From: Phycisphaerales bacterium
GTDB taxonomy: Bacteria; Planctomycetota; Phycisphaerae; Phycisphaerales; SM1A02
Direction: 5' to 3'
Assembly (NCBI GenBank): GCA_029245245.1
Contig: JAQWPT010000033.1
Coordinates: 124,001 to 188,000 of the forward strand
Length of the DNA: 64,000 bases
The first letter of the stretch is position 1. Every line of letters starts with the position of its first letter. Position numbers and translations under genes: made by a program. Positions 724-6,211 of this stretch are shown one piece after another. Below the pieces are notes generated by a model. That model was not told the origin of the DNA, ran no database searches, and saw nothing but the letters and a program-made list of their open reading frames with translations.

Positions 724-2235
724 GTGTCAACCAAACCCACTCAAGAAGTCGACGGCCGAGATGGTCGCATCCAGTCCGGTCGCCTTGTGGGCAAGTCGCT
801 TACGGCGATGATCGTCATCGTAGCGCTGCCGGTGATGATCCAGCAGTTCCTGGCGGCGACCGTGGGGCTGTTCGACAAGATACTCGCGGGGGCCCTCCCC
901 GAATCGATCGTGGTGGCAAGCCTCGATGGCCTTGGAGTCGGGTCCTACGTCGGATGGCTCATCGGGATCGCCATGGCCGGCATCGGGATCGGCGGGCAGG
1001 CCTTGATCGCCCGGGCCATGGGGTCAGGTGATCCGGACCAGTCGCATTCAGCCCTGGCGCAGTCGCTGCTGATCAGCACCATCTGGGGAACATTGTTCGC
1101 AGTCGTGATGTGGTTCATGGCTCCGTGGCTTGCCGATCTTGCGCTGAACGAGTCGCAGGCCGATGCTCGGGAATACTGCATCGAGTACGTGCGGATCATG
1201 GCCTACGGATTGCCGTTCTTCGGCATCATGATGGTCGGTGGCATGTGCATGCACGGGGCGGGAGAGTCTCTGGTTCCATCGATCATCGCGATCCTCGTGA
1301 ACGTGGTGAACGTCGGTGTGTCCTGGGGGCTGTCCGGGGCCGACCTGGAATGGCTCGGAGTCGACGGAGTGGAGAACCCCTTCGGGTTCGACCTGCACGT
1401 CTCCGGCATTGCATGGGGAACCGTGATCAGCTTCGCCTGCGGGGCCCTGCTCACGCTGGTGGCGCTGGCACGCGGTATCAAGGACCTTCGACTCGAGTCC
1501 CGGCGACTGTGTCTGGACGTGGCCATGGCATGGCGTGTCGTCCGGATCGGCATTCCCAACTTCTTCGAGGGGCTCTCCATGTGGATGGCCAACCTCGTGG
1601 TGCTCTGGTTCATCGGCGAGGTGGCCACCTCGAAGATGGCGCAGCACGTCCTGCTTGATTCGTCCGAGGACTCGGTGGACCTCGCAGAGGCCGGACAGGG
1701 GCTGCAGGGAGCGCACATCATTGCCGTGCAGTGGGAGGCGTTCAGTTTCCTGCCGGGATTCGCAATCGGGATCGCGGCCGGGGCCATCGCCGGGCAGTTT
1801 CTCGGGGCGGGCAATCTTCGCATGGCTCGCAAGGCGGTATGGACCTGCATCGGCATCGGGGTCGTCATCATGGGTCTGCTTGGGGTGGTCTTCTCGATCT
1901 TCGGCAAGGCACTGACGTCCGTGATCAGCGACGACCCCGTCTACATGGAGACCGTGCCGTCGCTGCTGCTGATCTGCGGGGTGACCCAGGTCTTCTTCGC
2001 AATCTCGATGGTCACCCGCCAGGCGCTGCGCGGTACGGGCGACACCCTCTGGGTCTTCATCATCACGACCTGTTCCAGTTACCTCGTCCGCCTTCCGGCA
2101 GCGTGGTTCCTGGGCATCTACCTGGAGATGGGGCTCGTGGGCATCTGGATCGGTCTCTGTGGCGAACTCGTGGTCCGCTCGATGCTCTTCCTCGCCCGCT
2201 TCATGCAGGGAGGCTGGGCGAAGAAGGCGATCTAG
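724..2235 (+). CDS. MATE-family multidrug/cation efflux transporter
   Basis: A 503-residue integral membrane protein of the usual MATE length (450-500). About 12 hydrophobic segments are visible, in two six-helix halves joined near residue 250. The first helix carries the typical sequence around ALPVMIQQFL. A second copy of the pattern (IGIPNFFEGLSM) opens the C-terminal half, as expected for the MATE internal duplication. Family members export cationic drugs or metabolites using a Na+ or H+ gradient; the substrate cannot be predicted. The start is GTG at 724, with no strong Shine-Dalgarno sequence. Its stop overlaps the stop of the convergent metallophosphoesterase gene in the palindrome CTAG. 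Confidence 0.88.
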   Translation: MSTKPTQEVDGRDGRIQSGRLVGKSLTAMIVIVALPVMIQQFLAATVGLFDKILAGALPESIVVASLDGLGVGSYVGWLIGIAMAGIGIGGQALIARAMGSGDPDQSHSALAQSLLISTIWGTLFAVVMWFMAPWLADLALNESQADAREYCIEYVRIMAYGLPFFGIMMVGGMCMHGAGESLVPSIIAILVNVVNVGVSWGLSGADLEWLGVDGVENPFGFDLHVSGIAWGTVISFACGALLTLVALARGIKDLRLESRRLCLDVAMAWRVVRIGIPNFFEGLSMWMANLVVLWFIGEVATSKMAQHVLLDSSEDSVDLAEAGQGLQGAHIIAVQWEAFSFLPGFAIGIAAGAIAGQFLGAGNLRMARKAVWTCIGIGVVIMGLLGVVFSIFGKALTSVISDDPVYMETVPSLLLICGVTQVFFAISMVTRQALRGTGDTLWVFIITTCSSYLVRLPAAWFLGIYLEMGLVGIWIGLCGELVVRSMLFLARFMQGGWAKKAI

Positions 2236-2999
2236 AGTCCTTCGAAGAGTCGTTCCCCGAGGATCGCGGGGAGACCAGCTTCAATGGTTTCAATGCGGGT
2301 CTGCTGGATGTCGTAGTCCACGCGATGCACGGTGAACGTCCGGGCCTTGGTGTCGAGTACGGCACAACTGGCTCGTGGATCGCTGTCGCGGGGTTGGCCG
2401 ACGGCGCCGGGGTTGCAGAGCACGAGGTGGTCGGCACGAAGTTCGATGGGCTCACCGGCAAGGGGAACGATCACTTCGACGGCCTCGGGTGGGCAGAACC
2501 CGTCGCCGATGATGTCGGTCGGAGCGGAAAAGACACGTGGGACGTGGGTGTGCCCGACGAGGCCGATGGGCGTGGTCAATGCCGCCAATGCTTCCGAGGC
2601 GGTCAACAGGTCGAGCACATAGGCGGTTTCGTTTTCGACGGGAGTGTCGTGGGCGCAGGTGACGCCCATGCTGGTGATCTCCCGTGTCTTCATGTGCAGC
2701 AGCGCATCGAGATCACGATCGGAGAGTTGTTTGCGTGTCCACTCGATGGCGGCCCAGGCGATTGGATTGAACTGGGCCTGTGCGCCTTCGACGAAGACGG
2801 CCTCGTCGTGGTTTCCACGGACAAGGACGTCGCAGTACGTCAGGGCCAGATCGAGGCATCGTGCGGGTGCGGGTCCGTATCCGACGATGTCGCCGAGGCA
2901 GTAGAGCTCCTCCACGTCATGCCGGCCCAGTTCGTTGAGTACGGCCATGAACGCATTGGCATTGCTGTGGATGTCGGAAACGACTCCGATTCGGGCCAT
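2232..2999 (-). CDS. calcineurin-like metallophosphoesterase
   Basis: A 255-residue protein with the full set of binuclear-metal motifs in order: SDIHSNANA near residue 8, GDIVGYGP near 36, RGNHDE near 60, and GHTH near 165. The GDIVGYGPxP form is typical of the YfcE/MPP family of predicted phosphodiesterases, so a soluble phosphoesterase of unknown substrate is likely. The frame is open for 40 more residues upstream, but that stretch is low-complexity Pro/Ser/Arg and would run into infC. ATG at 2999, directly before ARIGVVSDIHSN, is therefore taken as the start. It follows infC by only 10 bases and may be co-transcribed with it. Confidence 0.88.
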   Translation of the reverse strand: MARIGVVSDIHSNANAFMAVLNELGRHDVEELYCLGDIVGYGPAPARCLDLALTYCDVLVRGNHDEAVFVEGAQAQFNPIAWAAIEWTRKQLSDRDLDALLHMKTREITSMGVTCAHDTPVENETAYVLDLLTASEALAALTTPIGLVGHTHVPRVFSAPTDIIGDGFCPPEAVEVIVPLAGEPIELRADHLVLCNPGAVGQPRDSDPRASCAVLDTKARTFTVHRVDYDIQQTRIETIEAGLPAILGERLFEGL

Positions 3000-3009
3000 G
3001 GGACGGGAC

Positions 3010-3759
3010 TCACGAGGTGGGAGGATCAGTGGGATCGACGACGGCGTCCGTTTCCGGAGAGGCATCGACCTCGACGGCAGGGGCAGCTTCAGCGGCAGGG
3101 GCGATTTCGGCCGCGGCATCGATCATCGTTTCTTCAGCATCCACGGGGGCCGTGGGCTGGGAACCGGGCTGCTTGGCCGCTTCCTGCTGCTTGATGCGGG
3201 AGATCTTGGACTTGTCCGGGGCGAGGATGATCGACATTCGCCGGCCGGCCATCCGCGGTGGAGTCTCCAGTTTGCTGATGTCCTCGAGGGTCGCGGTCAC
3301 GTGCTTCATCCGTTCGTATCCACGCTCGCGATGCAGCATCTCCCGGCCACGGAAGTTCTGGACGATCTGGACCTTGTGCCCCTCCATGAGGAACTTGCGG
3401 GCCTGGTTCATCCGGATCTCAATGTCATGGGGATCGATCTTCATGGATCGCCCCAGCCGGACCTCTTTCATTTCCGCGGTCTTGGACCGGGCGCGGGACG
3501 CCTTCTCCTTCTTCGACTGCTCGTAGCGGTACTTTCCGAAGTCGAGGATCCTGCAGACCGGGGGATCGCTGTCGGGGGAGACTTCAACAAGATCGAGTTC
3601 GGCTTCGCGGGCGCGCTCCAGCGCATCCTCGGTCTTGATGATTCCGATCATGTTCTCTTGTTCGTCAATGAGTCGAACCGGGGACTTTCGGATGTGCTCG
3701 TTGATACGAGGCAGGTTCCGAACAGCATCCTGGGGACGAAAGTAGCGTCGGCGTGCGAT
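3010..3759 (-). CDS. infC: translation initiation factor IF-3
   Basis: IF-3 binds the 30S subunit and checks the start codon and initiator tRNA. The N-terminal domain (RINEHI, then VRLIDEQENMIGI) and C-terminal domain (EVRLGRSMKIDPHD, HKVQIVQNFRGREM) are both present and in order. The body of about 190 residues is normal. A further tail of about 60 residues, rich in Ala, Glu, Pro and Asp, is extra. The start chosen is the rare codon ATC at 3759, eight bases after GAGAGGAG; upstream ATG or GTG codons would add a basic, non-conserved leader. E. coli infC also uses a non-standard codon (AUU), which allows autoregulation, so the same control is likely here. Confidence 0.93.
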   Translation of the reverse strand: MARRRYFRPQDAVRNLPRINEHIRKSPVRLIDEQENMIGIIKTEDALERAREAELDLVEVSPDSDPPVCRILDFGKYRYEQSKKEKASRARSKTAEMKEVRLGRSMKIDPHDIEIRMNQARKFLMEGHKVQIVQNFRGREMLHRERGYERMKHVTATLEDISKLETPPRMAGRRMSIILAPDKSKISRIKQQEAAKQPGSQPTAPVDAEETMIDAAAEIAPAAEAAPAVEVDASPETDAVVDPTDPPTS

Positions 3760-3775
3760 GGTGGGGGCTCCTCTC
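3757..3775 (-). promoter_or_regulatory. infC ribosome binding site and ATC start codon
   Basis: On the minus strand GAGAGGAG (3775-3768) is followed by an eight-base spacer and ATC (3759-3757). The codons after ATC read ARRRYFRPQ and then the conserved RINEH of IF-3. No ATG, GTG or TTG with a usable Shine-Dalgarno sequence lies closer. Known biology: IF-3 discriminates against non-canonical start codons and so limits its own synthesis in enterobacteria. Confidence 0.7.
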
Positions 3776-4120
3776 AGCGAGCGAACAGTTGCGTGCGGGA
3801 CCGGGGCCGCCCCGGGTGCCGTTGGCAGGTTCGTCGCGTGGTGGCTCGTTTCAAGGGGCTGGAACGCAATGCATGGGTGGCCGGCAACATGCTCATGCGA
3901 TGTGCCGCAACCCCTGCGGGTGGATGTCGGTGCCCGTGGTTCCCATGTCACCCGTCGCAGTGCGGCGGTGGAATGGAACGCATTGATGAAGGGCGTGGTG
4001 ATCGATCATCCGCAGTGGTCCTGCTCCTCGTGCCCCGGGTCGAGAACAGACACGACCGAATCACGGGGCGGCACGCAGCCTACCACCGTGCGAGGGTTTT
4101 CGCCAAGGAAACCTTGGAAA
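3760..4120 (-). other. thrS-infC intergenic region / infC leader
   Basis: These 361 bases contain no convincing gene. Right after the thrS stop there is a perfect six-pair inverted repeat, CCAAGG/CCTTGG, with a three-base loop (4103-4117). It is not followed by a T-run in the minus direction, so it is at most a weak terminator or pause site. About 42 bases before the infC start a stronger GC hairpin, CCGGGG-ccg-CCCCGG (3801-3815), could lie in the infC leader. The length and hairpins leave room for leader control, but I could not match any known infC or L20 leader. Confidence 0.4.
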
Positions 4121-6211
4121 TCACGGGGTGGACGTCGCCGCCTCCGGGAACAGTTCGTCAATGATCGTCCGCGTGCCCCGCGTCGAGATTTCCGCCGAGA
4201 GGGTCTCGAGCAACTGCTCCAGCGGGGCGGCGCCGAGGTCCTTGGGGATGCCATGGGCCCGCACGCTGGCGGCATGGTGCTCCTGGTCCCGGGGGCCCAC
4301 GATGAAGAGGTATGGAATCTTCATTTCCGCGGCGGTGCGGATCCGGGCCTGCAGCCGCTCGTTGGAATCGTCCAGTTCCGCCCGGACACCGATGTCCAGC
4401 AGCTGCCGGTGAATGTCCTGGGCATACTCGGCACTCTTCTCGGAGACCGGCAGCACCCTGACCTGCTCGGGGGCGAGCCAGGTTGGGAAGGCGCCGGAGA
4501 AGTGCTCGATGAGCACCCCGATGAACCGTTCCCAGGATCCGAAGGGGGCCCGGTGGATCATGACCGGCCGGTGTGGCCGGTTGTCGGGTCCGATGTAGGT
4601 GAGATCGAAACGCTCCGGCAGGTTGTAGTCCACCTGGATGGTGCCCAGTTGCCATTCACGGCCGATGACGTCACGGACAACGAAGTCGATCTTGGGGCCG
4701 TAGAAAGCCGCTTCGCCGGGTTCCTCGGTGAAGGGGACCCCCAGTGATGCCGCCGCGTTGCGGCAGGCGGTCTCGGCCTTGTCCCAGTTGGATGGATCGC
4801 CGACGTACTTGGTGCTGTCGGGGTCGCGCAGGCCCACCCGGATCCGGTAGTCGGTCATGTTCAGGGCCGAGAAGATGATCTTCACGATCTCCAGGCAGCC
4901 AGCAACCTCGTCCGCGACCTGGTCCTCGGTCACGAACAGGTGGGCGTCGTCCTGGGTGAACCCTCGCACGCGGGTCATGCCACCGATCTCGCCGGACTGC
5001 TCCCATCGGTACACGGTTCCGAACTCATTGAGACGCAGCGGGAGATCCCGGTAACTGCGTGCGTCACTGGCATAGATCCGGATGTGGTGGGGGCAGTTCA
5101 TCGGCCGCAGGAGGTACCCGTCGATCTCGCCCTGCTGCATGCGGTTGGACAGCTCTGCGCAGGAGCAGCCCTCGTCGGCAAGCCGACGAAGCTGATCGCT
5201 GTCGATCAGTGGCGGGTACTGACTCTCCTGGTAGTAGGGGTAGTGTCCTGAGGTCCGGTAGAGGTCGAGCTTCCCGATATGCGGGGTGAAGACCTCCTGG
5301 TATCCCTGTCGCCGCAACTCGGTGCGGATGAAGGTCTGGAGGGCATCGCGAATGACCGCGCCCCGTGGAGTCCAGAGGATCAGGCCCGAGCCCACCATCT
5401 CGTCGATGGCGAAGAGCTTGAGTTGGCGGCCCAGGACCCGGTGGTCACGGCGTCGAGCCTCCTCCAGGCGTTCCATGTGATCGGCCAGGCCCGCCTCGTC
5501 GAAGAAGGCGGTGCCGTAGATCCGGGTCAACCGATCGGATTCGGCATCCCCGTGCCAGTAGCTGGATGCAACGGACATGACCTTGCATGCCCCGATCCGA
5601 CCAGTGCTGGGAATGTGAGGCCCGCGGCAGAGATCCTCCCAATCATTTCCCGGATCACCCGTTGCGTACCAGCTGAGCATCGTCGATCCGGCATCGAGTG
5701 CACGCTGGGCGTTGTCGATCTTGTACTTGCTTCCCTCGGATTCGAGTTTCTCCATGCCCGGCTCATGCTCGAGTTCGTAGCGGGTGAAGGGGCGGTCCTC
5801 GGCGATGATCGACTGCATCTCGCGTTCGATGGCCTCGAAATCCTCGTCACGGATTGGCCGATCCTCGGGGACCGCCATGTCGTAGTAGTACCCGTATTCC
5901 AAGGGTGGGCCGTAGACCAGTTGCACGTCCGGGATGACCCGCTGAATCGCTTCGGCCATCACGTGGGCGGTGCTGTGGCGAAGCATCAGCAGCGCATCGG
6001 GGTCCGGTTCCTGCCCCTTGCGGGGGGCGGTGAGCAGTTGCAGCGACGCATCATGCCGGATGAGGCAGGACATGTCGGAGAGCTCGCCGTCGATGCGGGC
6101 ACCGATGGCGGCCTTGGCCAGGCCAGGGCCGATGGAGGCGGCGACCTCCGCCGGGGTTACCGGCTGGTCGAATTCCTTCTGAGTTCCGTCTGGCAGTTCG
6201 ATGCGTGGCAT
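4121..6211 (-). CDS. thrS: threonyl-tRNA synthetase
   Basis: Class II synthetase charging tRNA-Thr in the cytoplasm; 696 residues, slightly longer than E. coli ThrRS (642). In order: an N-terminal TGS-like domain (1-60), the editing domain with HSTAH (H79, H83) and LCRGPH, then the catalytic core. The zinc ligands are seen in MNCPHH, in the region after RVRGFTQDDAH, and in MIHRAPFGS. The C-terminal anticodon-binding domain begins near APEQVRVLPVS. The start ATG at 6211 gives MPRIELPDGT, typical for a TGS domain. It lies upstream of infC on the same strand, the widely conserved thrS-infC order. Confidence 0.96.
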   Translation of the reverse strand: MPRIELPDGTQKEFDQPVTPAEVAASIGPGLAKAAIGARIDGELSDMSCLIRHDASLQLLTAPRKGQEPDPDALLMLRHSTAHVMAEAIQRVIPDVQLVYGPPLEYGYYYDMAVPEDRPIRDEDFEAIEREMQSIIAEDRPFTRYELEHEPGMEKLESEGSKYKIDNAQRALDAGSTMLSWYATGDPGNDWEDLCRGPHIPSTGRIGACKVMSVASSYWHGDAESDRLTRIYGTAFFDEAGLADHMERLEEARRRDHRVLGRQLKLFAIDEMVGSGLILWTPRGAVIRDALQTFIRTELRRQGYQEVFTPHIGKLDLYRTSGHYPYYQESQYPPLIDSDQLRRLADEGCSCAELSNRMQQGEIDGYLLRPMNCPHHIRIYASDARSYRDLPLRLNEFGTVYRWEQSGEIGGMTRVRGFTQDDAHLFVTEDQVADEVAGCLEIVKIIFSALNMTDYRIRVGLRDPDSTKYVGDPSNWDKAETACRNAAASLGVPFTEEPGEAAFYGPKIDFVVRDVIGREWQLGTIQVDYNLPERFDLTYIGPDNRPHRPVMIHRAPFGSWERFIGVLIEHFSGAFPTWLAPEQVRVLPVSEKSAEYAQDIHRQLLDIGVRAELDDSNERLQARIRTAAEMKIPYLFIVGPRDQEHHAASVRAHGIPKDLGAAPLEQLLETLSAEISTRGTRTIIDELFPEAATSTP

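Follow-up and report, generated by a model that had tools for sequence, protein, structure and literature searches.

The infC locus and its start site

We examined a 64,000-nucleotide stretch of the genome of a Phycisphaerales bacterium (hereafter the window), which contains on its minus strand the infC gene encoding translation initiation factor IF3 (Table 1). The product carries both IF3 domains above the Pfam cut-off (IF3_N, 2.1e-30; IF3_C, 1.8e-26), matches the TIGR00168 model with 184.5 bits and is also matched by IF3 entries of the PDB. Compared with E. coli IF3, it is prolonged at the C-terminus by a tail of about 65 residues (window 3013-3210) in which Ala, Pro and acidic residues abound.

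Table 1. Features at and around infC in the window
Feature	Position	Strand	Remark
infC	3010..3759	-	249 codons from ATC; C-terminal tail past the IF3_C domain
ATC start codon of infC	3757..3759	-	identified by position, Shine-Dalgarno spacing and the homologous codon in relatives
Shine-Dalgarno GAGAGGAG (AGGAG core) of infC	3768..3775	-	8 bases before ATC; conserved in the same-genus genomes G001 and G002
thrS, threonyl-tRNA synthetase	4121..6211	-	upstream neighbour of infC, as in E. coli
thrS-infC intergenic region, 361 bases	3760..4120	-	no special fold within 101 bases of the start
Calcineurin-like phosphoesterase gene	2232..2999	-	downstream of infC, in place of rpmI-rplT
Rejected upstream GTG start	3949..3951	-	not conserved in relatives

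The genes rpmI and rplT are absent directly after infC, where the phosphoesterase gene follows closely (window 2232-3012, L155). In the same genome, rplT is found together with an L35-like ORF on another contig (C21), and regulation through an operon shared with L20 was rejected on this ground. An RNA fold of the leader acting as regulator was likewise discarded, since the segment 3730-3860 folds no better than its shuffled versions (z 0.63). No promoter- or terminator-like sites were found within 3700-4200, and the Rfam search over the window returned two tRNAs only.

Direct reading of the minus strand from 3775 to 3757 gives GAGAGGAG, then the 8 bases CCCCCACC, then ATC. The codons that follow (GCA CGC CGA CGC ...) encode IARRRYFRPQDAVRNLP-RINEHI, the ATC being located 17 codons before RINEHI in a frame that encodes IF3. 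The original prediction of an ATC start at this place, of a Shine-Dalgarno sequence eight bases ahead of it and of codons running from it into RINEHI is thereby confirmed, and the ATC is further supported by its conservation in relatives. The AUU start that the prediction had attributed to E. coli infC served as a positive control, and ATT was indeed found at the annotated start of the gene in strain K-12.

The IF3 frame remains open far upstream of ATC, and its sole in-frame ATG, GTG or TTG before the IF3 domain is the GTG at 3951, 64 codons before ATC, from which an IF3 with 64 additional N-terminal residues could be translated. This GTG is not conserved, because in the same-genus genome G002 (L019) the upstream frame is closed by an in-frame stop 29 codons ahead of the conserved core, with no ATG, GTG or TTG thereafter; the same-genus genome G001 has a single canonical start, an ATG located elsewhere (74 codons ahead of the core). 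Furthermore, 44 and 45 of 51 bases are identical in the genus alignment from ATC to the core, as compared with 54 and 49 of 95 bases between -120 and -25, before the Shine-Dalgarno sequence, with gaps further up. Conservation thus stops at the Shine-Dalgarno sequence and does not extend upstream, and the differing starts of the two genomes together with this low and gapped identity indicate that the N-terminal extension is not conserved either. As many relatives also lack any canonical start, translation from the GTG is highly improbable and was rejected. The extension had been described as 64 non-conserved basic residues: its length and its lack of conservation hold, whereas its basic character is weak (5 K/R against 3 D/E). 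Initiation at another codon close to ATC is scarcely credible. A CTG is present 6 codons before ATC, but it abuts the conserved Shine-Dalgarno sequence and has no Shine-Dalgarno-like run visible just before it, and the first in-frame ATG downstream (the M of MIGII) is already inside the IF3_N domain. On the sequence evidence, infC of this Phycisphaerales bacterium almost certainly begins with ATC.

Conservation of the rare start and avoidance of ATG

The leaders of infC were aligned among relatives, as the original prediction had proposed. Within the same family and order (Phycisphaerales), infC was recovered from 58 genomes besides that of the window (59 of the 61 genomes searched gave a match), and the 58 usable order-level loci include the window's own. 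In the class, 145 of 150 genomes gave a match, and in the phylum 113 of 119; the loci analysed at these two levels are a subset of those recovered. MAGs of the Phycisphaerales, UBA3160 and UBA854 among them, are the nearest named relatives, with 92% identity.

We applied a codon-blind rule, which places the start from the Shine-Dalgarno sequence alone and ignores the identity of the codon, to 190 of 194 loci (L039, L136, L191 and L193, near a contig end or with a late profile start, were left out). In frame, it lands on ATC, ATT or ATA in 98 of the 190 loci; for the wrong frames, the figures are 5 and 2 of 190. As this single-position rule is often one codon off (for example on ACT after ATC), a wider spacing was used with the same wrong-frame control, counting ATC, ATT or ATA with a Shine-Dalgarno sequence at ordinary spacing where no ATG, GTG or TTG is so placed. 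By this wider rule, only ATC, ATT or ATA is found as start in 52 of 58 loci of the order (wrong frames, 5 and 3), 56 of 66 of the class sample (6 and 5) and 39 of 66 of the phylum sample (4 and 7). Among these 147 loci, ATC accounts for 88, ATT for 45 and ATA for 14, and in 35 of the 52 order loci the start lies 17 codons from the core, as in the window. Furthermore, 26 of the 58 order loci contain no ATG, GTG or TTG between the in-frame stop and a point at least 4 codons before the core. The rare start is thus kept across genus, order and class.

A set of named GTDB loci (79 of 80, L274 being left out) has ATC, ATT or ATA in 75 of the 79 usable cases, 60 of them with ATC; 27 of the 79 repeat earlier loci, and the 52 new ones contribute 50 with ATC, ATT or ATA. 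The 33 remaining phylum loci were inspected by eye, without wrong-frame controls: 22 have ATC, ATT or ATA and lack a canonical start behind a Shine-Dalgarno sequence, 2 have a canonical start, 3 have ACG only, 1 has CTG and 5 have none.

The L20 gene, used as control, starts with ATG in each of the 30 loci taken from the same order, and the lineage therefore makes no general use of ATC. A class-wide IF3 tree was built from the protein cores of 122 of 124 loci, 116 labelled with a start codon and 6 unlabelled; the loci without a start by the rule include L078 and L107, both with an in-frame ATG. Not one of the 116 labelled loci has an ATG start. This tree requires a minimum of 31 start-codon changes, only 4 of which are between ATC, ATT or ATA and anything else: C, T and A replace one another at the third base, which never settles on G. 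As far as sequences can tell, the infC start is under selection to stay poor and non-ATG, which is the expectation if IF3 limits its own translation. The start codon, its Shine-Dalgarno sequence, their conservation and the class-wide avoidance of ATG at this site are all read in the sequences themselves.

A few loci deserve separate mention. L023 (G012) has neither ATG, GTG or TTG from stop to core nor ATC, ATT or ATA with a Shine-Dalgarno sequence, its likely start being CTG, and the leader of L311 is the same. No infC match was obtained in G040, a genome rated 99% complete in which L20 is present. L298 and L304, whose contigs bear the titles Limnohabitans sp. and Candidatus Kuenenia stuttgartiensis, carry infC 59-60% identical to the window's and are perhaps binning errors. 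An infC copy adjoining rpsU on plasmid p3 of Azospirillum brasilense (L366) is annotated from ATA.

Canonical starts and ACG elsewhere in the phylum

The rare infC start is not universal in Planctomycetota, as some families have canonical starts. In the phylum sample, 11 of 66 infC loci have a canonical start only, and in one family (f46) an in-frame ATG precedes the core in 5 of 5 loci (L181, L342, L348, L350 and L351), 2 of which were scored as canonical by the rule.

Another order of the phylum (families f43, f64 and f88), distinct from that of the window, gave an infC match in 13 of 14 genomes. In 12 of these 13 loci (L158, L235, L149, L160, L236, L128 and L317-L322), an ACG preceded by a Shine-Dalgarno sequence lies at most 12 codons from the core, as compared with 1 and 0 of 13 in the wrong frames. 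The conserved ACG is located 5-7 codons before the core and its Shine-Dalgarno sequence is strong; in L158 and L235, the stretch from the in-frame stop to the core is free of ATG, GTG, TTG, ATC, ATT and ATA. The CAT initiator tRNA motif was found in 9 of 9 genomes searched, 6 of f64 and 1 of f43 among them. ACG is also seen in family f34 (L164, L334 and L336) and in L180 of family f86, the leaders of L164, L336 and L180 resembling those of the order above. Over the whole phylum sample, ACG and CTG taken as a class do not rise above background (in frame, 9 of 66 loci; wrong frames, 4 and 10), and the case for ACG therefore rests on one order and on a conserved position. From these data, it is likely that this order translates infC from ACG, a codon mismatched at its second base with the CAU initiator tRNA.

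A 2020 survey by Gvozdjak and Samanta is said to deal with genes that prefer non-AUG starts. An ACG start in infC was recognised nowhere in our literature search, whose coverage leaves most subscription journals outside; in PMC8266586, ACG appears as a synthetic test codon.

Reading of AUC and proposed feedback by IF3

No 16S rRNA was detected in the genome of the window, and the anti-Shine-Dalgarno sequence was therefore taken from the same-genus genome G001 (L200), whose 16S tail GGATCACCTCCTTTCT pairs with the AGGAG core. In that genome (contig C31, L200-L202), the 16S rRNA match is split into several pieces, perhaps because of insertions or an assembly problem. The stem-loop of the initiator tRNA, GGGCTCATAACCC, occurs in one copy in the window's own genome, within a tRNA-Met CAT gene (ARAGORN), and has the three G-C pairs of the anticodon stem. 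With a CAU anticodon, AUC would therefore be read with a third-base mismatch.

The following mechanism can be proposed. Translation of infC would start from AUC at 3759-3757, read by fMet-tRNA (anticodon CAU) despite this mismatch, and the good Shine-Dalgarno sequence would offset part of the loss. IF3 would destabilise initiation complexes on codons such as AUC, so that a surplus of IF3 would lower, and a shortage raise, its own translation. In vitro, IF3 favours strong codon-anticodon pairs (PMC10158994). The combination of an AUC start, a compensating Shine-Dalgarno sequence and feedback of IF3 on its own translation is very probably correct and, as a whole, the best explanation; for the window organism, the repressive action of IF3 and the resulting loop are proposed by analogy with work on E. 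coli and Streptomyces.

An alternative is that the AUC start merely keeps IF3 low, with no feedback from the level of IF3. Five arginines of E. coli IF3, R99, R112, R116, R147 and R168, are presumably important for 30S binding and discrimination. Only R168 is identical in the window IF3, R116 is conservatively replaced by K, and R99, R112 and R147 correspond to G, N and H (1 of 5 identical, 1 conservative). These differences speak for the alternative and imply that the strength of discrimination by the window IF3 need not equal that of E. coli. On the other hand, PMC5472188 describes an action of IF3 on non-AUG starts in both E. coli and Streptomyces. Moreover, it is the gene of the start-codon proofreader whose start has stayed poor despite many third-base changes, whereas L20 keeps ATG. 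A poor start without feedback is thus unlikely, and self-limitation by IF3 is retained as the preferred reading.

In Myxococcus xanthus, a member of another phylum, the IF3 homologue dsg, the subject of a 1994 paper, reportedly starts with AUC as does the window infC. Streptomyces, again of another phylum, shares the ATC start, which is misannotated in most Streptomyces, and the action of IF3 against non-AUG complexes, setting its own level, is stated for these bacteria (PMC5472188). The E. coli and window genes both lie downstream of thrS and both use a non-canonical AUN start behind a Shine-Dalgarno sequence. They differ by the codon (AUU in E. coli, AUC here), by the rpmI-rplT pair missing downstream in the window and by the longer C-terminal tail of the window IF3; autocontrol of E. 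coli infC is established, in literature cited by PMC5472188, whereas here it is deduced. A non-canonical AUN start and a Shine-Dalgarno sequence are also common to the window and Staphylococcus aureus, in which the start is AUA with an extended Shine-Dalgarno sequence and was mapped experimentally by ribosome profiling (Ribo-Ret; PMC13009471), unlike the window start, known from sequence alone.

The original prediction had seen in ATC the same logic at work in a distant lineage. This holds insofar as the rare start is conserved in relatives, the feedback being deduced, but it is less novel than the prediction implied, with the ATC of Streptomyces and the AUA of S. aureus in print (PMC5472188 and PMC13009471). 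Non-AUG starts of infC thus have precedents in E. coli (ATT), Streptomyces (ATC) and S. aureus (AUA), and what is new is the probable ACG start, outside the window.

The self-limitation of IF3 by a poor start codon would now extend to Planctomycetota, where the many third-base changes on the tree indicate that selection holds the infC start away from ATG. As a practical consequence, gene finders limited to ATG, GTG and TTG will misplace the N-terminus of IF3 in these genomes. For a specialist, the ACG lineage may be the unexpected part: if the ACG start is true, feedback can rest on a second-base as well as on a third-base mismatch, and this lineage would constitute a natural test of how far the mismatch of a start codon can go.
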